From a virus: 64,000 nucleotides of DNA. The stretch's first letter is position 1. Every line of letters starts with the position of its first letter. Location of the stretch: IMG/VR virus record IMGVR_UViG_3300042305_002533, positions 62,001 through 126,000 of that record; one strand, given 5' to 3'. This document shows, piece after piece, positions 5,258-33,550 of the stretch. The notes under the pieces were generated by a model. That model made no database searches, was not told the DNA's origin, and worked only from the letters and a program-made list of their open reading frames with translations. The position numbers and the translations under genes were made by a program.

Positions 5258-7205
5258 GGTCCTCCTTCAGTACGTTGAGATACGCGGTGTTTGCCACCGG
5301 CTTGGCTACTTCAGCACTGTACTTACAGCCTTTGCGGAAAGGCCGAATCTCGTCGCGGGCGCAGTCATTCATACGCTCACAAGACGCGCATGAAATCCGC
5401 TCCAGCATGGTGTACGCCACGTTATCCTTAAACGCGAGCGTTCTCGCCAAAAAGCCGTCCAGAGCCTGGGGGTGCGTGGACAGCAAGCGGTAAACAACCA
5501 TGTTGCGCGTCTGCCCTGGGCGGTTATTGCGCTCAAGCGACTGCTTGTAGTGCGTCAGGTTCCAGGTCAGCGCATAATAAATCATGTAATTTGCGGCCGT
5601 GAGCGTAACGCCAACGCCGGAGCTTACCTGTCCGATGTACACTCGGCAGATTGGGTCAGTTTGAAAGCGGCGGCTTAGCTCTTCAATCCGGCTGGTCGTT
5701 GATCCGTCTACGCGAACGTATTCATAACCTGCGTCTGAAACGGCCGTCTCGATGTCATTGAGCTCCTCAAGGTACGTCGCCCAGACGATGACCTTGTTCG
5801 CGTCGTCATCAGACAGCACATTGCCCAAGAGCTCTTTGAACGTCGCAAGCTTCGGGTTGGAAAGTCGTTTTATGGTCGTAGGAGGTTTTTCTTTGTAAAT
5901 GTGACACCGCTCCGTGTACGGGCGCACCCCAGTTTTAACGCAGCCCTGCACGTGCTCGCAGCCGTCACAGACGAGCGGGTCGGCGCCCTCAATGACGAAG
6001 CCTGAAACTAACTGCAAGAGCTTATTGACAAGGGCACCGCCGTGCGGGGTAGAAACCCCGCGCCCGCGTAAAGCGTTGGACTCCGCGTACGCAGCAAAAT
6101 CTTTGAGCCGCGCAATGCTGGCGTCATACTCCCGCGCTTGCGCCGAGGACAGGTCGAAGGGCACGTCAATGAACGTAACGGGCGGGAGGTCAATACACTC
6201 CTTCTTTTTCATGCGCGTCGCGATGCCTTCGACGCGCGCGTTCAGTTCATCCAGGTCGCGGTAGCCGTAGACCTGATGCTTATTGAACTTGGAATACACA
6301 AAGTGCTTTTGTTGATACGCGTACCAGGGCATGGGCATAAGCGCCGGCGAAAGAAAGCGCATCTGTGCATAGAGCTTGCCCGGATGATCAGCCGCTGTTC
6401 CCGAGAGCAAGTAGCGGCGGCACGCCTTGGCTGATAGCGTCAGCGCCGCCTGCGTTTGGGAGCTCTCATAGTTCCCGATGGAGTGAGACTCGTCAGAGAC
6501 AATCACCTGGTAGTCCAGGTCTTTCAGGCGCTTGGGGTGTTTATTTTTTGGGTCGAACTCAAGCCGCGCGCGGGCGTAGGAGAGCACAACGACGTCGGCG
6601 GTCTGGGCCGCCTCGTAGCTTTTGTCCGTACCGTCCCAGATAACTGCGCGCAAAGCGCCCTGTGTGCAGCGGCGGACTTCGTTAACCCACGTAGGCAGCA
6701 CTACCGGAGGCGCCATCACCAACATGCGCTTGAGCTCGGGATTTTCACGGCGTGAAAGCCGGAAGCCGTCGATCATCGTACGCGTTTTGCCGGTGCCCAT
6801 CTCCCAGAGAAAGAACGAACGCCACCACGCGGCGATGCGGCGGATGCCCAGTCTCTGGTGACGGTAAGGCTCAAACCCCTTGGGGAATTCAAAATCTTCG
6901 GGTAACTCGACCTCTTCGTTCTGGGCGTACGCCGACTTGGCGGCCCCCCAGACGTTGTCGGTCGCGCGCAAGTCATTTACGAAAGAAAGCGCAGAGGCCG
7001 TCCACTCGAGGTCAGGCGCTAAAACTTTCAGATCGTGCGCTACCGAAAGCCCGAAAGGATAGTATGCTGGAAAGAGCCAGTCGGCTCCTGACTGCACGGC
7101 GCCGGTTACACGCCGCCAGGGATCAGGAGACACGCTCGTCGGCGTGATGCGCCAAACGGGCGTAAGATTTAGATGAAGGCCACTAACTTTCACGCTGGGT
7201 GCCAT
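5232..7205 (-). CDS. SNF2-type superfamily 2 helicase/ATPase
   Basis: A 657-residue helicase. It has Walker A (EMGTGKTRTM), Walker B/motif II (SDESHS), motif III (LSGTAA) and a C-terminal RecA domain with VDGSTTSR and LERNNRPGQ, the arginine-finger motif VI of SNF2-like ATPases. Two Cys clusters are present: one inserted between the RecA domains (CDGCEH ... C), the other at the C-terminus (CASCERMNDC ... C), both probably zinc or Fe-S sites. Role: ATP-driven DNA remodelling or unwinding in replication. A GTG lies upstream at 7229, but the ATG at 7205 has GGAGGGAG eight nt upstream and is preferred. That ATG overlaps the start codon of the divergent portal gene. Confidence 0.88.
   Translation of the reverse strand: MAPSVKVSGLHLNLTPVWRITPTSVSPDPWRRVTGAVQSGADWLFPAYYPFGLSVAHDLKVLAPDLEWTASALSFVNDLRATDNVWGAAKSAYAQNEEVELPEDFEFPKGFEPYRHQRLGIRRIAAWWRSFFLWEMGTGKTRTMIDGFRLSRRENPELKRMLVMAPPVVLPTWVNEVRRCTQGALRAVIWDGTDKSYEAAQTADVVVLSYARARLEFDPKNKHPKRLKDLDYQVIVSDESHSIGNYESSQTQAALTLSAKACRRYLLSGTAADHPGKLYAQMRFLSPALMPMPWYAYQQKHFVYSKFNKHQVYGYRDLDELNARVEGIATRMKKKECIDLPPVTFIDVPFDLSSAQAREYDASIARLKDFAAYAESNALRGRGVSTPHGGALVNKLLQLVSGFVIEGADPLVCDGCEHVQGCVKTGVRPYTERCHIYKEKPPTTIKRLSNPKLATFKELLGNVLSDDDANKVIVWATYLEELNDIETAVSDAGYEYVRVDGSTTSRIEELSRRFQTDPICRVYIGQVSSGVGVTLTAANYMIYYALTWNLTHYKQSLERNNRPGQTRNMVVYRLLSTHPQALDGFLARTLAFKDNVAYTMLERISCASCERMNDCARDEIRPFRKGCKYSAEVAKPVANTAYLNVLKEDHENNTDAR
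6744..6756. repeat. Dispersed palindrome, TTCAC-GGC-GTGAA
   Basis: Perfect arms extended to TTTTCAC/GTGAAAG, inside the helicase. Confidence 0.9.
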
Positions 7206-8919
7206 GAGTTCTTCTCCCTCCGTTGACACGTCAAACCTCGCCGATCCAGTCGCACTGAACGGCGCAAACCACCCGAACCCGGCGTTTGATTACCTCACGG
7301 GGTTCGTACCAAGAAAGCTCAAGGACCTTTTCAAGTGGGCCGAATACCTCGCGTTCAACTCGGCGCACATCTACGGCGTCGTAAGAAAGTTCGGGGAGTA
7401 CCCGATTACGTCGTTCGTCTATGACACGACGTCGCCGGACGAAAAGCAGCGGCATCAAGACCTGTTTGAAAAAAAGACGCGGCTCAAGGGGTTTCTAACG
7501 CAGGTCTCGTTTGATAAGTGGATTTACGGCAACGCGTTCGTGAGCGTCTTTGAGCCTATCAAGCGCTGGCTCCGTTGCACCAAGTGCCGCACAAAAGAAG
7601 ACGTAAAAGTCGCGGATTACAAGTACGTCGACACTTCAACGGCGTTCAAACTGAAGTGCCGGAACTGCGGCTTTGAAGGCGTGGCCGAGGTCGAGGATGA
7701 GAAGCTGATCGACCCGTCGAAGATCAACCTGATCCGATGGGACCCGAAGCTCATCGACATTGACCACAACCCCGTAACCGGACAGAGCGTCTACTACTAC
7801 ACGATTCCGCGAACGCTCGTGCAGCAGGTCAAAGAGGGCAATAAGCATCTGATCGGCACCATGCCGATGGAGATGCTCAAAGCCATGAAGGCCAAGAAGA
7901 CCTTCAAATTTGCCGACGGTCAGATTTTTCACCTGAAAGTTCCAGGACCGGCGGGCGTGGAGTCGCAGTGGGGCTTCCCCCCGATCACCAGCGCCATCAA
8001 GCTCTTTTTGTTCGCCGCGATCCTTCGGCGCGCGAACGAGGCCATCGCGCTTGAGCACATCACGCCGTTTCGCGTAATTCACCCGCAAACCGCGTCAGGC
8101 AACGGCGATCCGCTTCTACAGCTCAATCTCGAAGAGTGGCGGCGAGAGCTGGAGAAAAATTACAAGCAATTCCGCAAAGACCCTCTGCGTATGCAGTTTT
8201 CACCCGTGCCCATCGGCGTCCAAAACGTCGGCGGAGACGGCCGCGCAATGCTGACGCTCGGCGAGCTACAGGAAGCGGAGAAGAACATTGTCCTGTCCAT
8301 GGGCGTGCCCATGGAGTTCCTGGCGGGCGGACTTGGGCAGATGCGCGGCGAGGTTACGCTGCGCATGTTGGAAAACCAGCTGCAAACGCACATCGAGGAC
8401 CTGAACGGGCTGATCCAGTGGGTCGAAGGAAAGTGCGCACGCTTCTTGGGCTGGGCTTCAATCCCGATGCGCCTCGCGGAGTTCAAGCTGCTTGACGACG
8501 TTGAGAACAAGCAGATTTACTTCCAGCTCTGGCAGCAGGGTAAGATCAGCGATACAAAGATCGGTGAACTCTTCGGCATCGACTGGGAGCACGAGCGCAA
8601 GCAGAAGATGGAAGATGTCTTGAGCGAAATGAAATCGCAGATGCAGCTTGAAGCTGCGCAGAAGAAGCTGCAGAACGCGCTCTCGCAACAGGCGGCAAAC
8701 AAAGCACAGATGTCTCAAAACCCGGCGCAGTACGACCAGCAGGCAATTATCGCGCAGGCCGATCAGATCGCCCAAGAGTTCGCCCAAATGGACATCGGCA
8801 CGCGCCGATCGCGCATGGACGCACTCAAGAACGAGGACCTCATCATGGCCTCGGTGGTGCGCGAGCGGCTTGAGCAGATGCAGCAAGACCAGGCAGCAGC
8901 ACAGCGGGCACAGGGATGA
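7204..8919 (+). CDS. Portal protein with inserted zinc ribbon
   Basis: A 571-residue protein with the features of tailed-phage portals: an N-terminal wing, a central ALxRANEAIALEH region, the GVPMEFLAGG and LRMLENQ stem/crown segments and a Gln-rich C-terminal coiled tail. It forms the dodecameric DNA channel at the capsid vertex and docks the terminase. An unusual insert carries CTKC (C125, C128) and CRNC (C152, C155), a four-Cys zinc ribbon in the wing region. It starts the plus-strand virion module. The start codon overlaps the divergent helicase start (CCATGA at 7202-7207) and has only a weak ribosome site. The large terminase is not in the window. Confidence 0.88.
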   Translation: MSSSPSVDTSNLADPVALNGANHPNPAFDYLTGFVPRKLKDLFKWAEYLAFNSAHIYGVVRKFGEYPITSFVYDTTSPDEKQRHQDLFEKKTRLKGFLTQVSFDKWIYGNAFVSVFEPIKRWLRCTKCRTKEDVKVADYKYVDTSTAFKLKCRNCGFEGVAEVEDEKLIDPSKINLIRWDPKLIDIDHNPVTGQSVYYYTIPRTLVQQVKEGNKHLIGTMPMEMLKAMKAKKTFKFADGQIFHLKVPGPAGVESQWGFPPITSAIKLFLFAAILRRANEAIALEHITPFRVIHPQTASGNGDPLLQLNLEEWRRELEKNYKQFRKDPLRMQFSPVPIGVQNVGGDGRAMLTLGELQEAEKNIVLSMGVPMEFLAGGLGQMRGEVTLRMLENQLQTHIEDLNGLIQWVEGKCARFLGWASIPMRLAEFKLLDDVENKQIYFQLWQQGKISDTKIGELFGIDWEHERKQKMEDVLSEMKSQMQLEAAQKKLQNALSQQAANKAQMSQNPAQYDQQAIIAQADQIAQEFAQMDIGTRRSRMDALKNEDLIMASVVRERLEQMQQDQAAAQRAQG

Positions 8920-9666: not shown

Positions 9667-12600
9667 ATGACTCAGCTGACGCCCGTACTCACCGACGCCG
9701 AAACGCTTCGCGGGAAGATTCACGAGAAGGTCACGGGCGCGCTTACCAACGTGTTCCCGATGGACCTCAAAGGGCGCACGCTTGAGGTGAAGGACATCAA
9801 AGTCCATCACCGGGACTACTCGTCCGACGAGCAGAAGAAAGCCCTGCTGAGCGGCGACTCCCTGCAGACGCCGGTGAAGGGGACGTTGGTGCTCAAGGGC
9901 GCCGATGGGCGTGTGATCGACGAGGCGAAAAACTTTACCCTCGTCCACATCCCGTACATGACGCCACGGCACACCGTGATCGCGGACGGCAACGAGTATC
10001 AGTTCGCAAATCAGATTCGCCGTAAGCCCGGCGTGTACACGCAGCGCGCCGAAAACGGAGAGCTCAAGACGATCTTCAACACGGGTCGGGGCGATAACTT
10101 CAATCTCAGCTTCAACGAAGCCAAGGGCACGTTCTCGCTACAGTACGGAACGAGCAACATTCCGCTCTACGCAACCTTACGGGGCTTGGGCGTAACGCAC
10201 GACGAGATCTCCAAGCATCTCGGAGAAGGCGTCGCCAAGGCCAATCAAGTCGCGCACGAAAAGCACATTGATACGGCGATCTCGAAGCTCTACCAGAAGC
10301 TCGAACACCCGGCCGTTTACGACCCGAAACTCCCGCACGTCGCCAAAGCCGAAGCGATCAAAAAGAAGTACAGCATCGCGTCGCTTGACCCGGACGTGAC
10401 CGAGCACACGCTGGGGCAAGCGCACGACCGCGTAACCCCGACCGCGCTTCTTCACGCCGCGAAAAAGATGCTCGCCGTGCACAACGGCAAAATCCCGGTC
10501 GACGATACCGACTCGCTGACCTTCAAGACCTTCCACGCCGTCGATGACTTCCTGGCCGAGCGCATTCGTCTGACGGCGCGCACCTGGACGCCCAAAGCCA
10601 AGATGGCGTTCAGCGGCAAGAACAACATTCGTGAGGCGCTACGCCCCGCGCCCTTCTCGGATTCGATCCGCAAGTTCGTGACGACGTCGTCTTTGACGGC
10701 CGTGCCCAGCGGAATCAACCCGCTGGAGCTCATGGATCACGCCGTGAAAGTCACGTCGCTCGGAGAGGGCGGGATCAGCTCTGACCGTGCGATTCCTCTT
10801 GACGCCCGCATGACGCACGCGACGCACTTCGGGGCGCTTGATCCAATACGCACGCCTGAGTGTTTAACCGGCGACGCCGAAGTCTTTACCGCAACGGGCT
10901 GGAAGCGCGCTGACGCCCTTACAGAATCGGACGCCCTCGCTTGCCGGATCGACGGTCGCCTTGAGTTTCATAAACCCGAACGGCTGATTGCCGCGCACTA
11001 TTCGGGCCCACTTCACGGCGTGAACACAGGGAAACTTGAGTACCTGGTCACTCCAAACCACCGCGTTTGGTGCGCTCCCGTAGACGCCGTGTACCCCCTT
11101 GATCAACCCCACGGAACTGGTTGGCGGTTTAGTCGCGCTGATGAAATTCACGCAAAACCTCGCGTATTTGATACTGGGCACGGCGCATTTATTGGAGCAG
11201 GGCCGGACACATTTCAACTGCCTGAAGTCGACGGCGCGCATAATGTGCGGAACGCCGGGCCTATCCCTATGCCGGATTGGGCAGCGTTCATGGGCTGGTA
11301 CCTTTCCGAGGGCTCGATTGGTCGGCACGAAGGGCGCCTGACGCACGTCCTTATTTCCCAAGACCGCACGGCTAATCCCGACTGTTGTGATGCTATCGAA
11401 GCCCTACTTTCTAGGCTGCCGTTTGGCTGGAGGTATGACGCCGCTAGCCGGGCGTTCGCCATTAGCGGAAAACAGCTTGCGAGTTACTTAGAGCCTTTTG
11501 GTTTTTCCCAGGATAAGTACATTCCCGAGTCCTTCTTCAATACCTCTATTGAAGCCCGGGAAAATTTGCTTGAAGCCTTACTGTTGGGCGACGGGCGAAT
11601 CAACAGCGTTCGGGCTACCGGCAAAAATTACAAACAGCAAGTGTTCTGCACTACGAGTGCCCGTCTTGCAGAAGGAGTTGAACGGTTAGCCATCTCTCTA
11701 GGAAAATCGCCTAGGACTCGTCGCTACTCAGATAAGCGAGAAGAGCGATATCTTGATACCTATGAAGTTCGCCTGCTCCGCGACCGGTATCGGCAAGCGG
11801 TTCCTAGAAAAGGCCACTACTACGTAAGGCTCCACGACGGGCTGGTGTATTGCGCCACCGTTCCGGGTGGGCTGATGTACATCCGCTATGGCGCTGGGAT
11901 TGGACACTGGTCCGGTAACTCAGGCCATGCCGGTGTAGACATCCGCGCAACCATCGCCGCGCACCGAGATGACCGGGGAAACTTCTACACGGCCATGAAG
12001 GACGTGAAGACCGGGAAACAGGTCTTCGTGCGAGCCGGCGACCTCGTCAAAAACGTCGTGGCGTTCCCCGGGCAAAACCTCAAGGGGGGCGTCAAAGCGT
12101 TCGTCAACGGGAAGATTGAAGAAGTGCCGGGCTCACGGGTGACGCACGAGATGCTGCACCTGTCGCACCAGTACTCACCGGCGACGAGCCTCATCCCGAT
12201 GATTCACAACATCCAGGGCAACCGCGCGATCATGGGTTCCAAGATGGGAACTCAGGCGCTACCCCTGCTTGATCGGGAGACGCCCTACGTCCAGGTAAAG
12301 AGCCATCTGCCGGGCGAGGTGTCGTTTGAAAAGGTCTACGGGCATCTGACCGTGCCGACATCGCCGGTGCACGGGACGGTGGAGAAGATCCAGGACGGGT
12401 ACATTTATATCCGGCCGCACGGGGAGAAGAAGGCCGAGGACCGCCCCGTCCTTGAGCAGCGGAAGCTCGGGCCGCACACGTTCAACCTGGAGATGATGCG
12501 CCACCAGTTTGAAGACGCCCCTGGCAGGCTCACGACCCGGTCGGGCAACTGGGACTACGGACATCTCCCCGGCTACACGGGGCCTGATGGCGACTCCCTC

Positions 12601-15600
12601 GACTTCTTCGTCGGCGACCACCCCGACGGGCACATCTTCTCGTTCGACAAGCAGCACAACGCCGACGGCAAGGGCTGGAAGACCACGGACACAAAGTTTG
12701 TGGTGGGCGTGACGCCCGAGCAGAAGGCGGAGTTCCGTCGCCGTCAGGCCGTGTACAACTCGGGGCCCGCACCCATGCGGCACGCGAACATCCGAGAGTT
12801 CAAGGACTGGAATCACCTTCAGCAGCACATCAACGAGCACTTCAAGAACGAGAAGGTCGCCGCTGCCAAGGACGACGGCCTCATCAAAGTCCCCTACGAA
12901 ACGAACTTTCCGTTCCCCTCGAAGACCTACCTGCATCACGACATTCAGGTAAAGCCGGGACAGACGGTTCAGCAGGGGCAGCGCCTTGGCGACTCGAACT
13001 TCACGCGCAACGGCACGCTCGCGCTCGGGAAGAACCTGCTCGTCGGATACATGGCCTATCACGGCTTGAACTCCAACGACGCCGTCGTCATCAGCGAAAG
13101 CTGCTCCAAAAAGCTCACCAGCGAGCACATGTACCGCGAGATCTACCCACTCTCGTCACAAATCGAGCTCTCGCGCGACAAGCACAAATCCTATTACGGC
13201 ACCAAGTTCACGCCGCAGCAGTACGCGAAGCTTGATGCTTCCGGCGTGATCAAGCCCGGTACGCGTGTTGACCCAAAAGACCCGCTCGTACTCGGGCTGA
13301 CGCGCGCTCAGATTCAAGGGCAAGACCTTCTCCTTGGGCGCATCTCGAAGTCGCTGACCAAGCCCTACAAAGACGTCGTGCTTCAATGGGAGCACGGCAC
13401 GCCCGGCGTGGTCGTTGAAGTCCTCCGAAGCTCGGGGCAGATCGCGATTCTGATCAAGACCCAGGAGCAGATGCAAGTCGGCGACAAGCTGGCCGGGCGT
13501 TACGGGAACAAGGGCGTCGTCGCGAAGATCGTCGCTGATCACGAAATGATTAAGGACGAGAAAGGCCGCCCGCTCGATCTCATCCTGACGTCCGCTGGCG
13601 TCGTAAGCCGCATCAATCCCGCACAGGTCATCGAAACCGCCGTCGGCAAAGTCGTCGAGAAGACGGGCAAGCCCATTCTCTACGACAACCAGGAGCACAA
13701 GGACGCCGTTCAGTGGGCCAAGGGGCTTTTGAAAGAGCACGGCATCAAAGACAAAGAGCACGTCTTTGACCCTGTGACCAAACGGACGATCGTCGGGCCT
13801 GACGGCAAGGGCGTACTCGTCGGGCGGCAGTTCATCTACAAGCTCTTCAAGAGTACGGACACAAACTTCTCAGGCCACGGCGTCGGCCCGTACGACGTAA
13901 ACGAACAGCCCCTGAAGACTGGCGGGGACGAGAGCGCCAAGGGCATCGGCAAGATGGAGTTCGACGCCATCGTGGCCCACAACGCCCGTAACTTTCTGCA
14001 GGAGGCCGCGTCAATCAAAAGCCAGAAGAACGATGAGTTCTGGCGTGCGATCCAGCTCGGGATGCCGCTGCCGACCCCAAAGCCTTCGTTCGCCTTCAAC
14101 AAGTTCACCGCCATGCTTGAAGGCGCGGGGATCAAAGTCGACAAGCGGGGGTCGAAGTTCAAGCTCTTGCCGCTGACCGACAAAGACATCACACAGCGCA
14201 GCAAAGGCGCGATCACCGAAAAGGAAACGCTGATCGCCAAGAACCTGAAGCCGATTAAGGACGGACTCTTTGACCCGCTGAAGACAGGCGGGCCTCAAGG
14301 CACGCTGTACTCTCACATCGACCTCCATGAGCCGATCCCGAACCCGGTATTCACCGAGCCGGTGCGGCGCCTTCTCGGGCTGTCCACAAAAGACTTCGAG
14401 CAGCGGCTACACGACCATGGCGGCGCGTGGTTTCACAAAGAGCTTCAAAAGATCGACGTTGACACGAAACTCAACGAGCTCACCAAGGCGATGAACAAAG
14501 CGGCGGGCCCTGAGCTCGACAACCTCGTCAAGCAGGTGAAGTACCTCCGCGCCCTGAAGAGCGAAAACCTGAAGCCCCACGAAGCTTACATCCTGTCCAA
14601 GGTGCCGGTGATTCCGCCGGTCTTTCGCCCGGTGCTGCCCGAAATGCGCGACCCGTCCAAGCTGATGGTTGCGGACGCCAACAAGCTTTACGGGCACCTT
14701 CTCGACACGAACAATACGCTCAAGACCACTGCCCTTGAGAGCGATCGCGGCAAGCACCGCGCCCTTGTCTTTAAGTCTGTCGGGGCGGTCTTCGGCATGA
14801 ATGACCCCGAGGACGAGAAGCTGCAGAAGCAGGAAGTGAAAGGCTTCCTACAGAATATTGCAGGCGTGGGCTCCCCGAAGGGCGGCTTCTTTCAGCGCAG
14901 GCTCATGCGCCGAACGCAAGACGTATCAGGACGTGGAACGGCCGTGCCGGACGGAAACCTCGGCATGGATGAAGTGGGCATTCCGGAGCAGATGCTCTGG
15001 CAGATGCTCGACAAACTCATCGTGGCGCGCCTGGTCCGGCAGGGATACTCAGCCCTGCAGGCGCGCGAACTTGTCGACAAAAAAGCGCCCGTCGCCCGCG
15101 AAGCTATGCTGGCTGAAAGTCGTGAGCGTCCCGTACTGATCAACCGCGCGCCGACGCTTCACCGCTGGTCGGTTGTGGCCGCGTATCCAAAGCCGGTGCA
15201 GGGCAAGACGATCCGCGTCAACCCCTTCGTCGAGAAGGGCATGAACCTCGACTACGACGGCGACACCCTTCAGGTGCACGCGCCCGTTCAACCGGGGGCC
15301 GTCGAAGACGCAAAGAAGATGACGCTCAGCCAGATGCTCCTGGCGGACCAACAGCGTAACAAGCTCATGGCCTTCCCACAGCACGAGGCCATCATCGGCT
15401 TTACGCTGGCGTCAAAGGCCACACCTACGGGACCGGCGCACCGATTCAAGACGCGCGACGAAGCCATGGCCGCGTGGCGTTCCGGCAAACTCAAGCTCAC
15501 GGATGGCGTCATCATCGAGCACGAAAAGAAAGCGGGAGCCGACGATTTTAGCGAGCCTTTAGACGGCACGCCGATGACGTCTGACGACGCGCTATGCTAT

Positions 15601-15645
15601 TACCCAGCGGAGAGTGTGACGGGCTATGAACCGCAAGCTAGCTGA
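9667..15645 (+). CDS. DNA-directed RNA polymerase, beta fused to N-terminal beta-prime, with intein and pyrophosphatase-like insert
   Basis: A 1992-residue precursor. Residues ~50-398 match the beta N-terminal lobes and end in DPIRTPE. An intein fills 399-751. Beta continues (IHNIQGNRAIMGSKMGTQA; then, after the insert at ~945-1060, GYMAYHGLNSNDAVVISES; active-site segment GDKLAGRYGNKG near 1272). The beta-prime part starts near 1530 (GLFDPLKTGG) and includes RRLMRRTQDVSGRG, LINRAPTLHRW and the catalytic loop NLDYDGD at 1860-1866, which keeps all three Mg-binding Asp of NADFDGD. It stops ~130 residues later; the rest of beta-prime is the 17901-19706 gene. The N-terminal zinc domain of beta-prime is missing. 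No alpha or omega gene is seen. Position among virion genes suggests the enzyme may be packaged. Confidence 0.93.
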   Translation: MTQLTPVLTDAETLRGKIHEKVTGALTNVFPMDLKGRTLEVKDIKVHHRDYSSDEQKKALLSGDSLQTPVKGTLVLKGADGRVIDEAKNFTLVHIPYMTPRHTVIADGNEYQFANQIRRKPGVYTQRAENGELKTIFNTGRGDNFNLSFNEAKGTFSLQYGTSNIPLYATLRGLGVTHDEISKHLGEGVAKANQVAHEKHIDTAISKLYQKLEHPAVYDPKLPHVAKAEAIKKKYSIASLDPDVTEHTLGQAHDRVTPTALLHAAKKMLAVHNGKIPVDDTDSLTFKTFHAVDDFLAERIRLTARTWTPKAKMAFSGKNNIREALRPAPFSDSIRKFVTTSSLTAVPSGINPLELMDHAVKVTSLGEGGISSDRAIPLDARMTHATHFGALDPIRTPECLTGDAEVFTATGWKRADALTESDALACRIDGRLEFHKPERLIAAHYSGPLHGVNTGKLEYLVTPNHRVWCAPVDAVYPLDQPHGTGWRFSRADEIHAKPRVFDTGHGAFIGAGPDTFQLPEVDGAHNVRNAGPIPMPDWAAFMGWYLSEGSIGRHEGRLTHVLISQDRTANPDCCDAIEALLSRLPFGWRYDAASRAFAISGKQLASYLEPFGFSQDKYIPESFFNTSIEARENLLEALLLGDGRINSVRATGKNYKQQVFCTTSARLAEGVERLAISLGKSPRTRRYSDKREERYLDTYEVRLLRDRYRQAVPRKGHYYVRLHDGLVYCATVPGGLMYIRYGAGIGHWSGNSGHAGVDIRATIAAHRDDRGNFYTAMKDVKTGKQVFVRAGDLVKNVVAFPGQNLKGGVKAFVNGKIEEVPGSRVTHEMLHLSHQYSPATSLIPMIHNIQGNRAIMGSKMGTQALPLLDRETPYVQVKSHLPGEVSFEKVYGHLTVPTSPVHGTVEKIQDGYIYIRPHGEKKAEDRPVLEQRKLGPHTFNLEMMRHQFEDAPGRLTTRSGNWDYGHLPGYTGPDGDSLDFFVGDHPDGHIFSFDKQHNADGKGWKTTDTKFVVGVTPEQKAEFRRRQAVYNSGPAPMRHANIREFKDWNHLQQHINEHFKNEKVAAAKDDGLIKVPYETNFPFPSKTYLHHDIQVKPGQTVQQGQRLGDSNFTRNGTLALGKNLLVGYMAYHGLNSNDAVVISESCSKKLTSEHMYREIYPLSSQIELSRDKHKSYYGTKFTPQQYAKLDASGVIKPGTRVDPKDPLVLGLTRAQIQGQDLLLGRISKSLTKPYKDVVLQWEHGTPGVVVEVLRSSGQIAILIKTQEQMQVGDKLAGRYGNKGVVAKIVADHEMIKDEKGRPLDLILTSAGVVSRINPAQVIETAVGKVVEKTGKPILYDNQEHKDAVQWAKGLLKEHGIKDKEHVFDPVTKRTIVGPDGKGVLVGRQFIYKLFKSTDTNFSGHGVGPYDVNEQPLKTGGDESAKGIGKMEFDAIVAHNARNFLQEAASIKSQKNDEFWRAIQLGMPLPTPKPSFAFNKFTAMLEGAGIKVDKRGSKFKLLPLTDKDITQRSKGAITEKETLIAKNLKPIKDGLFDPLKTGGPQGTLYSHIDLHEPIPNPVFTEPVRRLLGLSTKDFEQRLHDHGGAWFHKELQKIDVDTKLNELTKAMNKAAGPELDNLVKQVKYLRALKSENLKPHEAYILSKVPVIPPVFRPVLPEMRDPSKLMVADANKLYGHLLDTNNTLKTTALESDRGKHRALVFKSVGAVFGMNDPEDEKLQKQEVKGFLQNIAGVGSPKGGFFQRRLMRRTQDVSGRGTAVPDGNLGMDEVGIPEQMLWQMLDKLIVARLVRQGYSALQARELVDKKAPVAREAMLAESRERPVLINRAPTLHRWSVVAAYPKPVQGKTIRVNPFVEKGMNLDYDGDTLQVHAPVQPGAVEDAKKMTLSQMLLADQQRNKLMAFPQHEAIIGFTLASKATPTGPAHRFKTRDEAMAAWRSGKLKLTDGVIIEHEKKAGADDFSEPLDGTPMTSDDALCYYPAESVTGYEPQAS
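10736..10748. repeat. Dispersed palindrome, one mismatch
   Basis: ATCACGCCGTGAA, inside RNA polymerase beta, 113 bp before the intein. Confidence 0.65.
10861..11919 (+). other. Intein with LAGLIDADG endonuclease in RNA polymerase beta
   Basis: Residues 399-751 (353 aa). It starts with Cys (CLTGDAEVF), has the block B LVTPNHRVW, two LAGLIDADG-type helices (FMGWYLSEGS and LLEALLLGDGRI) and a C-terminal splice block ending GHWSGN, followed by extein Ser. Splicing would join TPE to SGHAGVDI, restoring the beta motif that reads TPEGQNIG in bacteria. A perfect dispersed palindrome lies inside (11012-11024). Boundaries are read directly from the splice motifs. Confidence 0.93.
11012..11024. repeat. 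Dispersed palindrome, TTCAC-GGC-GTGAA
   Basis: Perfect arms, inside the RNA polymerase intein; encodes LHGVNTG. Confidence 0.9.
12500..12855 (+). other. Family I pyrophosphatase-like domain inserted in RNA polymerase beta
   Basis: Residues ~945-1062 of the polymerase have no counterpart in bacterial beta. The segment has WDYGHLPG, then PDGDSLDFFVGD, then TTDTKFVVGV. These line up with the soluble pyrophosphatase motifs YGxxP, DGDPxD (three metal-binding Asp, all kept) and the later D-x-K. The flanks align with beta on either side (YIYIRPHG before; LIKVPYETNFP after). A homologous domain occurs in the 55949-57217 gene. Activity is inferred, not shown. Confidence 0.8.
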
Positions 15646-16237
15646 CATGTTGAGCGGGGGCCTGACTTCGACGTCGATCAAGCGCCCAGGCGAGCCAATG
15701 ATTCACGCCGTGAAAACGGAAGGCCCGCTCGGTAACCTGTTGAAGTCGATGGTCCCCGGGCCCTCGATGCACGTGATGCTCCGCGACATGGTGCCGTCGG
15801 CGATGAGCGGCGATGATTGCGGCTGCGACAACGTAGAAATCTTGAAGAAGCTGTCGTCCAAGAAGTACCAGCTGATCCTCGCGTACATTCATTACGGAGA
15901 TCAACTACGGGCGCTCTACCGGGACGGCATCTACGAGCACTTTCAGGAGCACCTGGAAGAGGAGCGCGCCCAGCTCTATCAGATCAACAAGAAGGTCACC
16001 GCCCTGGGGCATGACGCACCTTGTTGTCCGGGCGAAGTGCCGCCGGTGCCGCTCAACGACGCCAAGGCGATTTTTCGTGTCGCCCTGAAGATCGAAGAAG
16101 AATCGGTGCAACTCTGGTCCGATCTTTTCCGTCAAACCGACGACGACGTCGCCCTCAACGGCATGGCCCAGACGTATGCCCAGGAGTGCCAGGGGCACGC
16201 AGACGATCTGAAGCGCTATCTGCGGAGCTGTGAATGA
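15626..16237 (+). CDS. Ferritin-like four-helix protein
   Basis: A 203-residue protein that overlaps the end of the RNA polymerase gene by 20 nt (GGAG seven to ten nt before the ATG). After a ~65-residue N-terminal extension, including a CGC triplet region, the C-terminal ~130 residues resemble bacterioferritin/Dps-like helices: YIHYGDQLRALYRDGIYEHF, then EHLEEERAQLY and LKIEEESVQLWSDLF, with Glu and His at positions suited to a di-iron site. Two CC/PG residues separate the helix pairs. Role unknown in phage; ferritin-like folds can also be purely structural. The N-terminus carries a perfect dispersed palindrome (15702-15714) encoding IHAVKTEG. Confidence 0.65.
   Translation: MNRKLADMLSGGLTSTSIKRPGEPMIHAVKTEGPLGNLLKSMVPGPSMHVMLRDMVPSAMSGDDCGCDNVEILKKLSSKKYQLILAYIHYGDQLRALYRDGIYEHFQEHLEEERAQLYQINKKVTALGHDAPCCPGEVPPVPLNDAKAIFRVALKIEEESVQLWSDLFRQTDDDVALNGMAQTYAQECQGHADDLKRYLRSCE
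15702..15714. repeat. Dispersed palindrome, TTCAC-GCC-GTGAA
   Basis: Perfect arms, 76 nt into the ferritin-like gene. Confidence 0.9.
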
Positions 16238-17900: not shown

Positions 17901-19706
17901 ATGCCTACGCCCATCTCCGTTGGTCACTTCTTGATCAACGACGTCTTGCCCGAGACCCACAAAATCACCGGGCCGGTCACGAACAAAAACGTGCACGATC
18001 ACGTCGTCGGTCTGGCCAAAGCTAACCCCGCCGAGTACGTGAACGTCATCACGGCGCTTAAGCGGCGAGGCGACGAAATTGCCACACTTGAAGGTGTGAG
18101 CGTCGGCCTTGACGACATCGCACCCGATTACAAAGCACGCGACGCGATCTTGAAACCCGCGATTGCGAAGATTGAAAAAGCCAAGACCGAGAGCGAGCGG
18201 GAAAAGCTCGTCATCGAGGCGCAGAACGCGCTACTGGAGTACACAAAAAAGCACCCCGGCTCGATGACGCATATGGCACTTTCCGGAGCGCGCGGAAACC
18301 CCGCACAGCTCATGAAGATCGTCGCGACGCCGCTGGCGGCGGTGCACCCGAAGCACGGTATCGAGCGGATACCCATCAAGCGGAGCTACTCCGAAGGGTT
18401 GACCGCCGCCGAGTACTGGTCGACCGTGCCTGAGGTTCGCGCCAATAACGTCGCTACCGTGGTGTCGGTCTCCGAGCCCGGAGAAGTCGCCAAAGTCCTC
18501 GTCAACAACATGATCGGGACGACTGTCACGCGGCCGGATTGCGGAACAAAAAACGGCGTGCACATGCGCCTCGACGACGGCCACATTCTGGACCGGTACG
18601 CACAAGCCAGTCACGGAGTAGCCCGCAACACCTTGATTACCCCCCGGCTCGTACAGGAGCTTAAAAGCAAAAACATCCAAGAGCTCCTCGTGCGCTCACC
18701 GATGACGTGCGCCGCTTCGCATGGCGTCTGCCAGCATTGCCAAGGGCACAGCGAAAAGGGGCAGCTTCACGGGATTGGCGCTCCGGTGGGCGTGCGTGCC
18801 GCACAGGCCCTGGCGGAGCCTTTGACACAGATGGCGCTCTCCTCGAAGCACGCCGTACTAACAATCAAAGAAAAAAAGTTGGAGCCTACGGGCCTCAAAG
18901 GTTTCCGCCAATACCTTGAAATTCCAAAAGCGTTCAAATACGAAGCGGTACTCGCCCCGCAAGCCGGGCTTGTAACAAAAATTGAGAAGGCGCCGCAAGG
19001 CGGGCACTATGTTGTCGTTGGTGCTGAAAAGCTTTACGTCCGCCCAGAACTCAGCGTTACCGCGCACGTCGGGATGCACGTAGAGCACGGAGACGCTTTG
19101 ACCAACGGTGTGCCTAATCCGCAAAAAATCGTCGCCGCAAAAGGCCTCGGGGCGGGCCGCGCATATTACGTCGGGGCCATTCACCGGGTCTACCAAGGCG
19201 AAGGCATAAACTTGGATAGGCGTCACCTGGAGCTCTTGGCCAAGAGCGAGATGAACCACGTCCGCCTTCTAGACGCCGACCCAGAACACCCCGAGTTTCT
19301 CAAAGGCGACGTCATTAACTACAACGCCTTCCGAGAAGCGTACTCCAAAGACGTCACACACATGCCGCTCTCCGAAGCTATAGGAAAGCGGCTGGGGCAA
19401 GAGATACTACACCACACGGTCGGAACCCCAATAACGCCGGCTCTTGTAAACGAGCTGAAAAGCAAAGGCGTTCGCGAGGTCCTTGTAAACAAGCGGCTCC
19501 CTCCGGTAGAATTTGTGATGAAACCATTCACCATGAACCCGCTACACGAAAGTGATTGGATGGCGCGGCTGGCGCACCGGTACCTCAAGGGGTCCATTCA
19601 GCAGGCGGCGCAATTTGGAGAAACGTCCGACATTCATGGCGCCCACCCAATTCCGGCTTACGCTTACGGAGCCGAACTTCGCCACGGCCCGTCGGGCGGA
19701 TACTGA
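17901..19706 (+). CDS. DNA-directed RNA polymerase beta-prime, C-terminal part
   Basis: A 601-residue protein covering the part of beta-prime after the catalytic loop. SGARGNPAQLMKIVATP matches the bridge-helix SGARG motif; the following PIKRSYSEGLTAAEYW matches the trigger-loop and PITxxFREGLxxxEYF region. A zinc site is formed by the DCGT Cys and the CAASHGVCQHC cluster. GAPVGVRAAQALAEPLTQM matches GExVGIIAAQSIGEPGTQL. The C-terminal ~100 residues resemble the end of beta-prime. It must pair with the 9667-15645 chain, from which it is separated by three genes. The start is ten nt after the previous stop, with TAAACT six nt before the ATG and no clear Shine-Dalgarno. Confidence 0.93.
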   Translation: MPTPISVGHFLINDVLPETHKITGPVTNKNVHDHVVGLAKANPAEYVNVITALKRRGDEIATLEGVSVGLDDIAPDYKARDAILKPAIAKIEKAKTESEREKLVIEAQNALLEYTKKHPGSMTHMALSGARGNPAQLMKIVATPLAAVHPKHGIERIPIKRSYSEGLTAAEYWSTVPEVRANNVATVVSVSEPGEVAKVLVNNMIGTTVTRPDCGTKNGVHMRLDDGHILDRYAQASHGVARNTLITPRLVQELKSKNIQELLVRSPMTCAASHGVCQHCQGHSEKGQLHGIGAPVGVRAAQALAEPLTQMALSSKHAVLTIKEKKLEPTGLKGFRQYLEIPKAFKYEAVLAPQAGLVTKIEKAPQGGHYVVVGAEKLYVRPELSVTAHVGMHVEHGDALTNGVPNPQKIVAAKGLGAGRAYYVGAIHRVYQGEGINLDRRHLELLAKSEMNHVRLLDADPEHPEFLKGDVINYNAFREAYSKDVTHMPLSEAIGKRLGQEILHHTVGTPITPALVNELKSKGVREVLVNKRLPPVEFVMKPFTMNPLHESDWMARLAHRYLKGSIQQAAQFGETSDIHGAHPIPAYAYGAELRHGPSGGY

Positions 19707-20638: not shown

Positions 20639-22801
20639 ATGAGTCTGCTAAAGCATGCAATGGTGGCCGGCATCAATGACGCCCTCGTCGACAATGGTGT
20701 CGTGTCGTGGCCGAATGAGGCGGTCGGGTTCGAGGTGTGCTCGAAGATCGCGGCCGATCTAGACGGCCCCGACGTGCTGCCCGAGGGCGGCCTCTCGGGG
20801 GAGAGCGCGCTCCTCATCGGTAATCGGATCAAGGAGGCCTCGGAGCTTCTGATCGCCAATGGCTATGGCCAAGACCCGGAGTCGGCGCTGCGCACCAAGC
20901 AAGCAGCGGAGATGAACTTCGAGGACCGCGCTGCGATGGTAGCCGAGGCGTGTATGTCGAAGGCCGCCGCCGAGGCGTCGCTCACCGACGTTGGGCCGAA
21001 TACCGCAGAGTCGGCGGCGCAGACCGATCAGCATGCGGCGCTTGATCTCAAGAACCGCGCCATGAACAAGTACCTCACCGGCGTCGGCCGTACGATGTTC
21101 CCGAGCGGGGGCGTCATAGGCCAGCAGATGATGGCGCCCGAGCGCCAGTCGGGCCCTGCGATTTCTAACAGCCTGACGTCGTTGGATAAGCAGGCGAATG
21201 TATCGCGTCGAGAGATGGCGGAGTACCTGGCAGGTCTCGGCTTATCCCCCCAGCAAATTGCAGAGCAGCTGGGCCCGGAGCCGCGCATGGATAAGCTGCG
21301 GGAGGGCCTTGGCCGAGCGGGCGGGACTATCGCCGATTACCTCGGCCGCATCCCCACAAACCCCTTCGCGGGTGCGGGCGGGCAAGGCGTGCTCGGTGGG
21401 GCGAAGCACATCGGCGGAAACCTTCTACGGCACCCGGGCACCCATGCCGCCGCGCTCGCCACTGCTCTGTATGGTGGCAACAAGCTTATTAAAGGGCTAA
21501 CTGCGGACAAGGCAGACGCTGACGCTTTTATGCAAGCCGCCGCCGACGGCGGCAATGCAGAGATGGCCGACTATTTGGCCAGTAAGCAGGCCAACGAAGA
21601 CATGGCCGCTGCTGACCTCGCCGAGGCGTCGGACATGACTCCGGGGCCGACCCCGGGGGCCCTACAGCGCGCAATGATGTTCCTTAGCGGGCTGAAGAAC
21701 CGTATCCCGAGTTTCCGCCCGAGCCCGGAGGCTGTAGCGGCCGCCTCCGGCCTTGGGGAAGAGGGCGCTCCCGGGATGGAAGTCATGGCGCACCTCCTTG
21801 ATGGCGTGAAGACCGCCGAGGATGCCGAAGCCGCGCTGCAGCACGTATTCGAGTTGCAAGTTGCGAACGAGAAGACCGCGTCGGTCCAGCTGTATGAGGC
21901 GGTGCAGGAGAAGGTTGCTGACGAGGCTGCGGCCGCTGCGCAAGGCGCCAAGGAAGCCCCCGGGGCGCTCCGCCAAGCCGGAGCCGCAATAATGCGCAAC
22001 AAGCTTCGGACAGGCGCAGCGCTAGCAGGAACTGCCGCTGCCTTCTACGGCGGCAAGAAGTACCTCGACCACCGCAAGGCCAAGAGGGAAGAGGCGGCCA
22101 AGAAGGAAGAGGAGTCGAAGGCAGAAGAGAAGGCGGCGGCGCTTCTTGAGTACCTGAAGCAGGCTTCCGAGGGCGAGGCCGCTGCGAAAGCAGTTACGGA
22201 CGCCGGCAAGGAAGCCCCCGGGGCGTTCCGCCGAGCCGGAGAAGCAGTAATGCGCAACAAGCTTCGGACAGGCGCAGCGCTAGCAGGAACTGCCGCTGCC
22301 TTCTACGGCGGCAAGAAGTACCTCGACCACCGCAAGGCCAAGAAGGAAGAGGCGGCGCGCCAGCAAGAAATGTCGCCCAAGGCGGCCTCTCTACTGGAGT
22401 ACCTCAAGGCCGCTGCGGACGGTTCGCTTACGGACGTCGGGGAGAACACGCCCGAGTCGGCCGCGCTGACCGACTCCGTGGCTGAACTCGACATGCAGAA
22501 CCGCTCGCCCAATGAGTACCTCATGGGCGTCGGCAAGACCCGCATGTCGAACAAGGGCCAGGTCTACGCCGTGGAGGACGCGGGCCAGGACAATCCCGTG
22601 CAGACGCACAATCTGCCCACGGACGAGACCAAGAGCGCTGAGCTTGCGTACGTGAACAACTTCCGCAAGATCGCCGCCGATCTCGGGCCTTACCTTCCCG
22701 CGACCATGAGCCGCGACGAGAAGGTTGCGCACCTTCAGACCATGCTCGGCCTCCCGCCGTCCGAGCGCGTCCAGTACGTGCAGGCTCTTCGCGCCGGCTG
22801 A
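20639..22801 (+). CDS. Large virion-associated protein with internal duplications
   Basis: A 720-residue Ala/Glu-rich protein with a strong AAGGAG before the ATG. Two internal duplications are clear: a ~50-residue block (RNKLRTGAALAGTAAAF, then GGKKYLDHRKAK) repeated 86 residues apart, and a SLTDVGxNTxESAA...LxGVG block near residue 120 and again near 610. A single hydrophobic Gly/Ala stretch lies in each copy of the first block. Numerous K-[IVT]-A motifs are present (CSKIAADL, NEKTASV, QEKVADE, FRKIAADL, DEKVAHL). It ends at a strong terminator. Probably an internal or ejected virion protein; function not known. Confidence 0.75.
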   Translation: MSLLKHAMVAGINDALVDNGVVSWPNEAVGFEVCSKIAADLDGPDVLPEGGLSGESALLIGNRIKEASELLIANGYGQDPESALRTKQAAEMNFEDRAAMVAEACMSKAAAEASLTDVGPNTAESAAQTDQHAALDLKNRAMNKYLTGVGRTMFPSGGVIGQQMMAPERQSGPAISNSLTSLDKQANVSRREMAEYLAGLGLSPQQIAEQLGPEPRMDKLREGLGRAGGTIADYLGRIPTNPFAGAGGQGVLGGAKHIGGNLLRHPGTHAAALATALYGGNKLIKGLTADKADADAFMQAAADGGNAEMADYLASKQANEDMAAADLAEASDMTPGPTPGALQRAMMFLSGLKNRIPSFRPSPEAVAAASGLGEEGAPGMEVMAHLLDGVKTAEDAEAALQHVFELQVANEKTASVQLYEAVQEKVADEAAAAAQGAKEAPGALRQAGAAIMRNKLRTGAALAGTAAAFYGGKKYLDHRKAKREEAAKKEEESKAEEKAAALLEYLKQASEGEAAAKAVTDAGKEAPGAFRRAGEAVMRNKLRTGAALAGTAAAFYGGKKYLDHRKAKKEEAARQQEMSPKAASLLEYLKAAADGSLTDVGENTPESAALTDSVAELDMQNRSPNEYLMGVGKTRMSNKGQVYAVEDAGQDNPVQTHNLPTDETKSAELAYVNNFRKIAADLGPYLPATMSRDEKVAHLQTMLGLPPSERVQYVQALRAG
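21945..22358 (+). repeat. Direct repeat pair of about 150 bp, 258 bp apart
   Basis: 21945-22100 and 22203-22358 are near identical; from 21991/22249 about 95 bp match without a mismatch. The period is 258 bp (86 codons), so the reading frame is kept. Near identity including third positions points to a recent duplication. Confidence 0.85.
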
Positions 22802-22823
22802 AATCGCTTACAGCTAGCGCCTC

Positions 22824-22866
22824 CCAAACGCCTGCGGCTATACTAGCCGCAGGCGTTTGGCTTTTT
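22824..22866 (+). terminator. Strong terminator with a TATACT hexamer at its tip
   Basis: A 17-bp perfect stem (22824-22840 with 22844-22860), a 3-nt loop and CTTTTT. The tip reads CTATACTAG, so the strand also contains a good -10-like hexamer about 37 nt before the next start codon. It may end one transcript and start another. Confidence 0.9.
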
Positions 22867-22879
22867 GAGGAGCAGCACA

Positions 22880-25369
22880 ATGACGATGGAGTTCCCCCTT
22901 TCTCAGTCCCCGCGAACCCAAGGCTTCCAGATGCCCCAAGCGCCCGAGGACGAGAAAGACCTATTTACCCAGGGTTTCTCCGACCTGGCTTATCGCGCCT
23001 TCCAGAAGACGCAGCCGGAACTGGTCAGTAACGTCTTGACCTTTCGCGTGCTCGACGTTGATGCCGAGAGCGGTACGGGCATCGGCACGTTCATTCTGCA
23101 AAATGAGCAAGACATCGTCTTCGTGCCTTGTGTAGTGTCGGAAAACTCGGTCAAGCCGCTCGACCTGTTTTACTCAAGAAGCAACGACCGCTTCTACCCC
23201 TTTACAAGCGAGTGGCTCCGAGAATCGTCCAAAGACAACGTAAACCAGCTGGGCTCCGGAGTTCGCGCCCCGAAGAGCATGCCCACAGACGTGGACATTC
23301 GTAACCTCGTCGTGCCCCCAACGACTGGGCGTTATAGCTACGCGTCGGACATGGAAGACGTCGCATGGCTTCCGTTCCTCGTAGCCGTTCGAAAAGAAAA
23401 GACGGCGGAGTTTGCCGGCGAACCTCGGTTTCTGGACCTGATCGGCGCGACCTCTAACGGGTTTAAGACCGCGTTCGCCAAAGTTCTCCACCGGCGCCCC
23501 AAAATCGCCAAGCTCTTTGCCGAATTTTACGGAGCGGAGAAGGTCGCCAACGCGATTTCGCGGCGTGAAAAAACGGCGCAGGAGCATCGGAAGGAAGTTC
23601 CGATGACAAAGAGCGTGGCGATCATGACCAACGCCACGCCCGTTGCGCAAATCAAGCGGGAGCTGAAGCCCGGAGAAGCGGCTCTGGCTTTTAAGCAGAT
23701 CCGTCTCCACGGGTTTTATGTAAAAGACCCGCGCCCTGCGACCGACAGCATCTACTCGTTTGCCGAGTCAGACCTCTGCCTTCAACAGCCGACAGTTCCA
23801 GGAGTCTATAAGGTTTATTTGACGGCGGGCGGCGCCGAGCCCGCCATCATCATCCCCAAGCCGGTATCCGTGCATCGCCGACGAAGCGACGAAGCTCGCT
23901 TCCCGTATGGCTATTACCACGACGATCGCAACCGCGATTCGGGACTAAAACTTCGGCGCGGTTTCCTCGTGCTGTTTCAGGACGGGCGTTACGCGATCAT
24001 GGACGACATGGTCGCCGAGCCCATCACGAACGTCGCACACAAGGAAGTGCAAGACTTCCTCGAAACGATGACTAAGCCCGCGCCGGCCAACGGGGAGTAC
24101 GGCGTCCTTATTTCTGCCGACGACATGGACATCCGGGCGCTTGAGCCCATGGCGGCAGAGAACGTCGTAAGCACAAAAAACCGAACGACGTTCAATGGCG
24201 CGTACCATCACACGATCATCATGAACAAGAGCATGTCGGGTAACGGAATCGTTTACCCGCAGGACTCTGACACCCTGATGGTGGCGGGAAGCTTTCGCTG
24301 GTTCAAGTGCGGAAAGCAGCTTGCCAACTCTGAAATTCTCGCTACGCCGGGTGCAGTCTTTCGGCTGGTTGAGTACGGGCTTCTGAAGCAGGGAGCTCAG
24401 AAAATTCTGGTAAAGAAGGCGGGCCTTAACTTCGTCGTCAACGCCGACGGCGCCGCGCTGCCTTCGCTCAAAGCCGTGGAGAAGGTCGCCAACGTTTACA
24501 ACGTCAGCGTCAAAGAAGCCTCAGAGATTGTGACCCTGATCGGGGCGGGGCTTCCGATTTCAGCTTGGCGTGTAAAAACGGCCCAGGGCGAATCACTAGA
24601 TCCGAACGCACCGCCGGTTGACCCGAATGCGCAACAGGCCGCGCCACCTCCCCCACCGCCGCCCTCAGGCCTGGATCTCGCGACGCAAGAAAAGCTTCAG
24701 CAGATTCAATCTCAAATTGCTGCGCTGCAACAGATGCAGCAAATTTTGACGGAAGTTCAACAACGCGCGCAGATGATCGATCAGGGCGGCGGCGCCATGG
24801 CTGCTCCTGGCGCAGCGGCGGCCATGGCCGCAGGTCCGGGGATGATGGGCGGGCAGCCCGCCATGGCGCCTCCGGACATGGGCGGGCAGATGCCACAAGG
24901 TCAACCGGGAATGGAGCAGGGGCAACCGGGAATGGAGCAGGGGCAACCGGGAATGGAGCAGGGGCAACCGGGAATGGAGCAGGGGCAACCCCCGCCTCCA
25001 GTCATGCCCGAGGGCCCGGTCTCCGAGCAGAACCTCGAACAACAAATGAATCCCAACTTCCTTCAAGACGCGGCATCGCTACAAGATGCTAGGATCTTCG
25101 ACGCGGCCGCAATCGCCTCAATGGTCAAACAAAAAGGCATGCGGGACATCCTTCAGAACTACTTACCAAGCGTTGAAAAAGCCATGGATAACCTCGGGCG
25201 GATGCTTCTTCTTTTTTACATGAAAGAGGGAGAGATCAAGCAGCAAGTTGGCGCCGAGGTGTTTGAAGAGACCGAGAACAAGATCCGGGACGTCTTCAGG
25301 GGCATGGGCGACGCGTTGCTCGCCCTCAAGCAGTACTCTGAGCCGCGCCTACCCGCAATGGCGCGATAA
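22880..25369 (+). CDS. Large virion structural protein with GQPGMEQ repeats
   Basis: An 829-residue protein; ATG with GAGGAG eight nt upstream. Residues ~20-560 are a mixed, mostly beta-rich region with no family I recognise. It is followed by a Pro run, a Gln-rich coiled coil (LQQIQSQIAALQQMQQI), a Met/Gly/Pro linker containing four exact 7-residue repeats (GQPGMEQ) and a helical C-terminus. Several EKVA/EKTA motifs occur (for example AEKVANAISRREKTAQ). A one-mismatch palindrome at 23557-23569 encodes part of that segment. The layout suggests a structural or scaffolding protein of the head. Confidence 0.72.
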   Translation: MTMEFPLSQSPRTQGFQMPQAPEDEKDLFTQGFSDLAYRAFQKTQPELVSNVLTFRVLDVDAESGTGIGTFILQNEQDIVFVPCVVSENSVKPLDLFYSRSNDRFYPFTSEWLRESSKDNVNQLGSGVRAPKSMPTDVDIRNLVVPPTTGRYSYASDMEDVAWLPFLVAVRKEKTAEFAGEPRFLDLIGATSNGFKTAFAKVLHRRPKIAKLFAEFYGAEKVANAISRREKTAQEHRKEVPMTKSVAIMTNATPVAQIKRELKPGEAALAFKQIRLHGFYVKDPRPATDSIYSFAESDLCLQQPTVPGVYKVYLTAGGAEPAIIIPKPVSVHRRRSDEARFPYGYYHDDRNRDSGLKLRRGFLVLFQDGRYAIMDDMVAEPITNVAHKEVQDFLETMTKPAPANGEYGVLISADDMDIRALEPMAAENVVSTKNRTTFNGAYHHTIIMNKSMSGNGIVYPQDSDTLMVAGSFRWFKCGKQLANSEILATPGAVFRLVEYGLLKQGAQKILVKKAGLNFVVNADGAALPSLKAVEKVANVYNVSVKEASEIVTLIGAGLPISAWRVKTAQGESLDPNAPPVDPNAQQAAPPPPPPPSGLDLATQEKLQQIQSQIAALQQMQQILTEVQQRAQMIDQGGGAMAAPGAAAAMAAGPGMMGGQPAMAPPDMGGQMPQGQPGMEQGQPGMEQGQPGMEQGQPGMEQGQPPPPVMPEGPVSEQNLEQQMNPNFLQDAASLQDARIFDAAAIASMVKQKGMRDILQNYLPSVEKAMDNLGRMLLLFYMKEGEIKQQVGAEVFEETENKIRDVFRGMGDALLALKQYSEPRLPAMAR
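23557..23569. repeat. Dispersed palindrome, one mismatch
   Basis: TTCGCGGCGTGAA, inside the 22880 gene; fills a long gap between perfect sites. Confidence 0.65.
24902..24990 (+). repeat. Tandem 21-bp repeat, four copies
   Basis: Four exact copies of a 21-bp unit beginning CAACCGGGAATGG, plus a partial fifth, encoding GQPGMEQ repeats. Being in frame, copy-number change would only alter linker length. Confidence 0.92.
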
Positions 25370-25380
25370 CGTGAACGTTT

Positions 25381-26091: not shown

Positions 26092-26111
26092 CCTAGAATT
26101 GGATTAACGCC

Positions 26112-28504: not shown

Positions 28505-28505
28505 G

Positions 28506-28721
28506 ATGCTTGTTTCAAAAAACCTACGAGACACCCTTCGCTACGACGGCTACGCAAAGCTGGCTGCGCAGATCATGCGCGATCAGAACGAGTACGTTGG
28601 CGATATCACCGACTTAATGGGCGGAATCAAATCTGTGTCGGTGAAAATTGCGGTCAACCGTATGAACGAGCAAACTATTTGGGACGGCCTTCACGCCTAC
28701 CAACAGCTAAAGGGCGGTTGA
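28506..28721 (+). CDS. Small hypothetical protein
   Basis: A 71-residue protein with AAGGGG seven nt before its ATG, which is 1 nt after the previous stop. It has YAKLAAQIM, another K-x-A motif, and an amphipathic helical C-terminus. No family recognised. Confidence 0.7.
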   Translation: MLVSKNLRDTLRYDGYAKLAAQIMRDQNEYVGDITDLMGGIKSVSVKIAVNRMNEQTIWDGLHAYQQLKGG

Positions 28722-28722
28722 A

Positions 28723-30468: not shown

Positions 30469-30471
30469 ACT
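30466..30471 (+). promoter_or_regulatory. -10-like TAAACT, 9 nt before the protease-like gene
   Basis: Same CGCTAAACTA context as at 17889, which argues against chance. Confidence 0.45.
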
Positions 30472-30480
30472 AATCACACC

Positions 30481-33519: not shown

Positions 33520-33550
33520 AACGTCCTACCCTGTAGATGAGGATCGGCAC

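Follow-up and report, generated by a model that had tools for sequence, protein, structure and literature searches.

The window analysed here, a stretch of 64,000 nucleotides taken from a 130,678-base IMG/VR virus record, encodes a phage RNA polymerase (RNAP) β subunit with a pyrophosphatase-like domain inserted in its barrel-sandwich domain (bD1). By profile matches and predicted fold the insert is identified as the PF18823 InPase, the hairpin-less family I pyrophosphatase of phage polyvalent and portal proteins. We give roughly even odds (about 0.5) to the reading that it is an accessory, polyvalent-type InPase in the bD1 loop of a virion-packaged RNAP, which would hydrolyse pyrophosphate (PPi) after injection. 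The presence of a pyrophosphatase-like domain inside β had been proposed in a first-pass annotation, and is confirmed by profile, PDB sequence and predicted-fold searches.

Polymerase architecture and identity of the insert

The features discussed below are located in the window as follows (coordinates, strand, description and basis).

7204–8919, +, portal protein gene adjoining the RNAP gene (synteny of related loci; named portal from the Arash counterpart)
9667–15645, +, phage RNAP β fused to the N-terminal half of β′, 1992 residues (open frame, Pfam)
10861–11919, +, intein-like insertion in β, residues 399–751, at RTPE/SGHAG (sequence, comparison with locus L005)
12364–12417, +, upstream strand pair of bD1 hosting the insert (alignment to bacterial β)
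12418–12462, +, N-terminal linker of the InPase insert, HGEKKAEDRPVLEQR (comparison with insert-less relatives)
12463–12849, +, InPase (family I pyrophosphatase-like) domain, residues 933–1061 (PF18823, alignments, AlphaFold2, Foldseek)
12556–12573, +, YGHLPG, residues 964–969 (motif position)
12586–12603, +, DGDSLD, residues 974–979 (motif position)
12685–12696, +, TDTK, residues 1007–1010 (motif position)
12850–12879, +, C-terminal linker of the insert (motif enrichment in the loop across relatives)
12850–12864, +, EKVAA motif in this C-terminal linker (motif enrichment in the loop)
12880–12942, +, downstream bD1 segment where conserved β resumes, LIKVPYETNFPFPSKTYLHHD (insert-less relatives, alignment to bacterial β)
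13480–13515, +, catalytic β motif (Lys), GDKLAGRYGNKG, intact (motif position)
15244–15264, +, β′ motif NLDYDGD, intact (motif position)
17901–19706, +, C-terminal half of β′ as a gene of its own, 601 residues (PF04998, E-value 2.9e-15)
30481–33519, +, probable prohead protease with an intein-like insert (position, sequence)
55949–57217, −, second InPase-bearing protein, 422 residues (synteny, InPase tree)

The product of 9667–15645 is, as judged from its sequence, β of an mReC-type phage RNAP together with the N-terminal half of β′. Its Pfam domains occur in the order RNAP β domains 2, 3 and 6, then β′ domains 1 and 2 (E-values of 1.8e-41 for Rpb2_6 and 2e-18 for Rpb1_2). The β and β′ sequences are homologous to those of cellular RNAP and belong to a tailed-phage genome, which also encodes a portal, a protease, a capsid protein and proteins of tail type. 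Cellular-type β and β′ likewise lie beside capsid, portal and tail genes in the multimeric RNAP-encoding Caudovirales, mReC (Weinheimer and Aylward 2020, PMC7481178). The parts of that account drawn on here mention no inserted enzyme domain, whereas the present β holds an InPase in its bD1 loop and is fused to the N-terminal half of β′. The gene order helicase–portal–RNAP–β′C is conserved, the RNAP gene adjoins the portal gene in 15 of 16 relatives checked, and the 13 records searched for RNAPs yielded one apiece.

Some further peculiarities of this locus and of related loci were observed. The intein-like insertion in β has the ends CLTGDAEV...HWSGN/S; β of L005 is continuous at the corresponding RTPE/SGHAG position. 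In Vibrio phage D181 (L036), the β gene is split at a point upstream of this region, and a homing endonuclease gene lies between the two parts. A ferritin-like gene (15626–16237, PF00210, 3e-11) lies between the two RNAP genes; it occurs in the loci of the InPase clade and in L005, and was not found in the tested loci of other clades.

Conserved β blocks at residues 900–917 and 1072–1092 are separated by approximately 154 residues, which are missing in close relatives. The first-pass annotation had described an insert of about 115 residues; that the segment is inserted holds true, but its actual extent, residues ∼918–1071 (12418–12879), is a little longer than claimed. Compared alone with PF18823, the segment scores 29.1 bits (E-value 1e-6; curated cut-off 26.8), while in a scan of the whole protein it scores 25.3 bits, slightly below the cut-off; inserts at the same site in L026, L009 and L008 reach 74, 112 and 117 bits. 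A database search with the 133-residue insert alone found no relatives, but alignment queries did find them. With a profile of the InPase inserts, the best match among PDB sequences is a phage portal protein, in its C-terminal domain (PDB entry 9b41, gp19; 1.1e-16), a different carrier protein, followed by family I pyrophosphatases from 4e-5. AlphaFold2 models of the domain have pLDDT values of 77.5 with flanks and 87.0 without, and predict an OB-type pyrophosphatase fold. In Foldseek only family I pyrophosphatases appear among the 50 PDB matches listed, with modest TM-scores of ∼0.4–0.5 and a best E-value of 2e-3, which bears out the resemblance to the pyrophosphatase fold; in the viral library the model matches InPase-bearing phage proteins.

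The motifs YGHLPG, DGDSLD and D-x-K, on which the annotation had relied, are indeed present, the last one within TDTK. In the alignments E942, Y964, D974, D976, D979, D1008 and K1010 fall on conserved family positions. Across 49 InPases including the insert, Y964, D974, D979 and K1010 do not vary at all and E942 hardly varies, and the position of D976 is occupied by D or E in most. The four metal-site acids D974, D976, D979 and D1008 are present together with Y964 and K1010, and the metal ligands have not been lost in relatives, the site acids, the tyrosine and the lysine being conserved in other polymerases with the same insert. D1008 stands where the family usually has E before x-K, and the preceding Asp of the D–E pair is replaced by Thr1007; in the 49-sequence alignment the N-terminal, substrate-binding part is diverged as well. 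Because of this threonine and the N-terminal divergence, activity of the window's InPase is less sure than that of the inserts in L006–L010.

Profile match, fold and motifs (YG..DG[DE]..D and [DE]-x-K) are the same as those of the polyvalent-protein InPase (PF18823, PMC5512222). The difference lies in the carrier, which here is a multi-subunit RNAP β instead of a polyvalent protein, a portal or a head protein. A chance motif is ruled out by the profile, the fold and the conservation in relatives, and an assembly chimera by the same junction in many independent metagenome contigs.

The bD1 loop and its occupants

A profile of the insert-less phage β sequences matches bacterial β at 2e-39, and this alignment places the insert in the bacterial barrel-sandwich domain, at a turn that joins two of its strands. 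We take this turn to be approximately residues 736–750 in E. coli, counted from E813 of the E. coli sequence. The barrel-sandwich domain corresponds to bD1, E. coli residues 715–790, which is not listed among the insertion sites of a survey of cellular RNAPs (uD2, uD3, uD4 and uD5; PMC11515920). The BEAN and HABAS insertions of bacterial RNAPs are likewise whole domains within β, but have other folds and occupy those four sites; with its pyrophosphatase fold and its position in bD1, the present insert is neither of them.

The β loci were gathered from three IMG/VR scans (best 80 loci each), the window and isolates, giving 192 loci with both anchors, which form 119 clusters at 95% identity. A large insert, defined as at least 200 nt at the bD1 site, is found in 18 of the 119 clusters (14 InPase, 2 GNAT, 1 cysteine-rich and 1 other), fractions that are biased by the sampling of the best 80 loci per scan. 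The last of the three scans, centred on insert-less RNAPs, revealed no additional large inserts. The GNAT acetyltransferase domains, in L050 and L090, match PF00583 with 35.7 bits (cut-off 20.7). The site is a permissive surface loop of bD1, which accepts different domains in different phages.

Several individual loops deserve description. In L004 (5547–7307) a single β loop holds three domains, an InPase, a P-loop kinase-like domain (AAA_18, 28.1 bits, slightly below cut-off) and, at the N-terminal end of the insert, one without significant Pfam match. The loop of L047 contains an InPase and an extra domain that is ParB-like by eye and has no significant Pfam match. In L011–L013 the loop carries a domain without significant Pfam match, and in L081 one that is cysteine-rich by eye, again with no significant Pfam match.

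L005, with 82% identity downstream of the site, has no insert. Insert-less RNAPs related to that of the window also occur in two isolates, Salmonella phage Arash and Vibrio phage D181. Since close relatives such as L005 lack it, the InPase is accessory and dispensable for the RNAP. When the β alignment was used to look for a cellular RNAP with a pyrophosphatase in the GTDB genome collection, only two weak matches came up.

Origin, selection and a flanking motif

In a tree of 77 phage β sequences plus the Arash row, calculated without the insert and containing phage rows only, all InPase inserts fall into a single supported clade. Of its 18 rows, 14 have the domain and 4 lack it; each of the four other inserts arose separately. 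The tree of InPases unites the inserts of the window, L004 and L048 with the second InPase protein of the window (100/99), which is also the closest relative of the RNAP insert outside RNAPs. The inserts of L006–L010, L027, L044, L045 and L047 form a separate group (100/98) adjoining free-standing InPases. This makes it likely that, in the lineage of the window, the domain was exchanged between a virion module and the RNAP. A single origin in RNAPs was considered; the RNAP tree permits one gain followed by losses, but the domain tree splits the groups, and separate captures or exchange appear likelier, with long branches in the tree.

The position of the second InPase protein is syntenic with stand-alone InPases of related phages. 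Stand-alone InPases occur in some insert-less mReC records, and in the two inspected they lie within a gene block of tail or virion type. In one of these two, L198 (2572–3954), where the block is of tail type, a metallopeptidase-like HEIGH segment is joined to the InPase. Elsewhere InPases belong to virion or polyvalent proteins, such as the portal protein 9b41 and, among isolates, minor head proteins and one that is DarB-like.

The InPase is under strong purifying selection in one clade (L006–L010/L027), where dN/dS is ∼0.02–0.12 wherever dS can be estimated, low like the RNAP flanks. Between the window and L004, dN/dS of the InPase is ∼0.19, with 58% identity versus 86% in the flanking RNAP.

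The loop is marked by a motif of the form [x]K[TAVSHILF]A[ASEGD]. It occurs in 45 of 77 loops against ∼5.5 expected from shuffles, a motif that was first noticed in the window and tested afterwards, and that Lys/Ala-rich linkers could mimic. By loop type it is present in 13 of 14 InPase loops, 3 of 4 with other inserts and 29 of 59 without insert, and is missing in the subclade L021, L022, L024, L025, L028, L029 and L032. Its remaining matches in the β open frame are mostly within conserved β motifs. A narrower form, used for the head-block genes, is enriched in several of them, most notably in a small gene that directly precedes the one for the capsid protein, as seen in the window, in six relatives and in Arash; in the L025 genome this capsid-preceding gene is enriched in the motif though the loop lacks it. 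The probable prohead protease gene has 6–7 copies (1.0–1.4 expected). At the capsid N-terminus a KEA is conserved, and its surroundings are likewise conserved. EK[TAV]A motifs were also seen in strong excess in proteins encoded between RNAP and capsid (20639–34096), and the intein-like segment of the protease gene reads CLSAGTPITMADGRRV...VAVHN/C.

In giant phages, propeptides contain several copies of the motif at which the prohead protease acts, and the enzyme also cleaves itself at its C-terminus (PMC5694885). The protease encoded at 30481–33519 is a candidate enzyme for the K-x-A motif, and the K-[TAV]-A in the loop is possibly a head-protease site.

Possible functions of the inserted domain

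The head of phage SPN3US contains a multi-subunit RNAP (PMC10052503), and the RNAP of the window is probably packaged in the virion too, to judge from the position of its gene beside the portal gene and from the candidate protease motif. In the favoured reading this polymerase, the only multi-subunit RNAP of the phage, would be packaged and injected, and helper enzymes would be attached to it at the bD1 loop, in the manner of polyvalent proteins. Once in the new host, the InPase would hydrolyse the PPi that early transcription and replication of the phage release, either while still joined to the RNAP or after the head protease has cut it loose at the K-[TAV]-A sites on its flanks. Polyvalent-protein InPases have been proposed to clear PPi in this way, aiding early transcription or replication, or to process nucleotides (Iyer et al. 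2017, PMC5512222). As in polyvalent proteins, phage polypeptides that combine at least two effector or enzyme domains, RNAP and InPase are joined here, and L004 has three inserted domains. The RNAP may double as a carrier of helper enzymes. The exchange of cargo in one loop fits a carrier, and a wider interpretation can be put forward tentatively, namely that mReC β is itself a polyvalent carrier, with a protease-bounded loop whose exchangeable enzyme cargo would be freed during head maturation.

The physical link between the InPase and the producer of PPi would fit a function in cis, in which the attached domain would remove PPi leaving the polymerase, pull transcription forward and limit pyrophosphorolysis. 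PPi clearance near polymerases has already been proposed for the InPases of polyvalent proteins and NURF (PMC5512222), the active-site residues are kept, and the domain is found in all members of the clade L006–L010/L026/L027/L044/L045/L047, under purifying selection where measured. However, most relatives, very close ones included, are without the InPase insert, and other phages fill the same loop with acetyltransferases and other domains that have no link to PPi. Hosts normally have a soluble pyrophosphatase of their own, which also counts against a device in cis. The accessory status, the unrelated domains of the loop and the flanking motif suit a carried domain at least equally well, and we regard action in cis as rather unlikely. 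Action on another phosphoanhydride, for example a defence or stress nucleotide, with the RNAP as mere transport, would fit the nucleotide substrates proposed for some InPases (PMC5512222), the additional domains inserted alongside the InPase in L004 and L047, and the GNAT domains in the same loop elsewhere; the metal site and lysine match canonical pyrophosphatases, however, and we regard such an effector as improbable. We consider it very improbable that in the window's β the domain has little or no catalytic activity and persists as a spacer because the loop tolerates it. The low InPase identity to L004 relative to the flanks, the threonine in the D–E pair, the diverged N-terminal half and L005, which lost an InPase or never had one, would all agree with such decay, but dN/dS is still low in that comparison and D974, D976, D979, D1008 and K1010 are retained.

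The InPase, the mReC RNAP and domain insertions in RNAPs are each known separately, as is the HD fusion in AR9-type virion RNAP (PMC7598289, PMC7824862). In the latter a phosphohydrolase domain is likewise fused to a phage RNAP β polypeptide, but it has an HD fold and is located on the C-terminal β part, whereas the present domain has a family I pyrophosphatase fold and is internal. Neither an InPase within RNAP β nor the use of the bD1 loop to hold enzyme cargo was found in the open-access papers searched, in agreement with the annotation, to which no described polymerase with such an insert was known.

PPi clearance by InPases has so far only been proposed, and here the InPase is lodged in a transcribing enzyme. 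Selection has kept it in one phage clade, while close relatives lack it, and these offer naturally matched pairs in which only one member has the domain. It is thus testable whether removal of pyrophosphate helps the polymerase or the infection. The bD1 loop, outside the list of the cellular survey (PMC11515920), tolerates whole enzymes, and this raises the question whether phage RNAPs bring cargo into cells. If β is a carrier, its cargo (pyrophosphatase, acetyltransferase, kinase-like and other domains) would enter the host with the injected RNAP.
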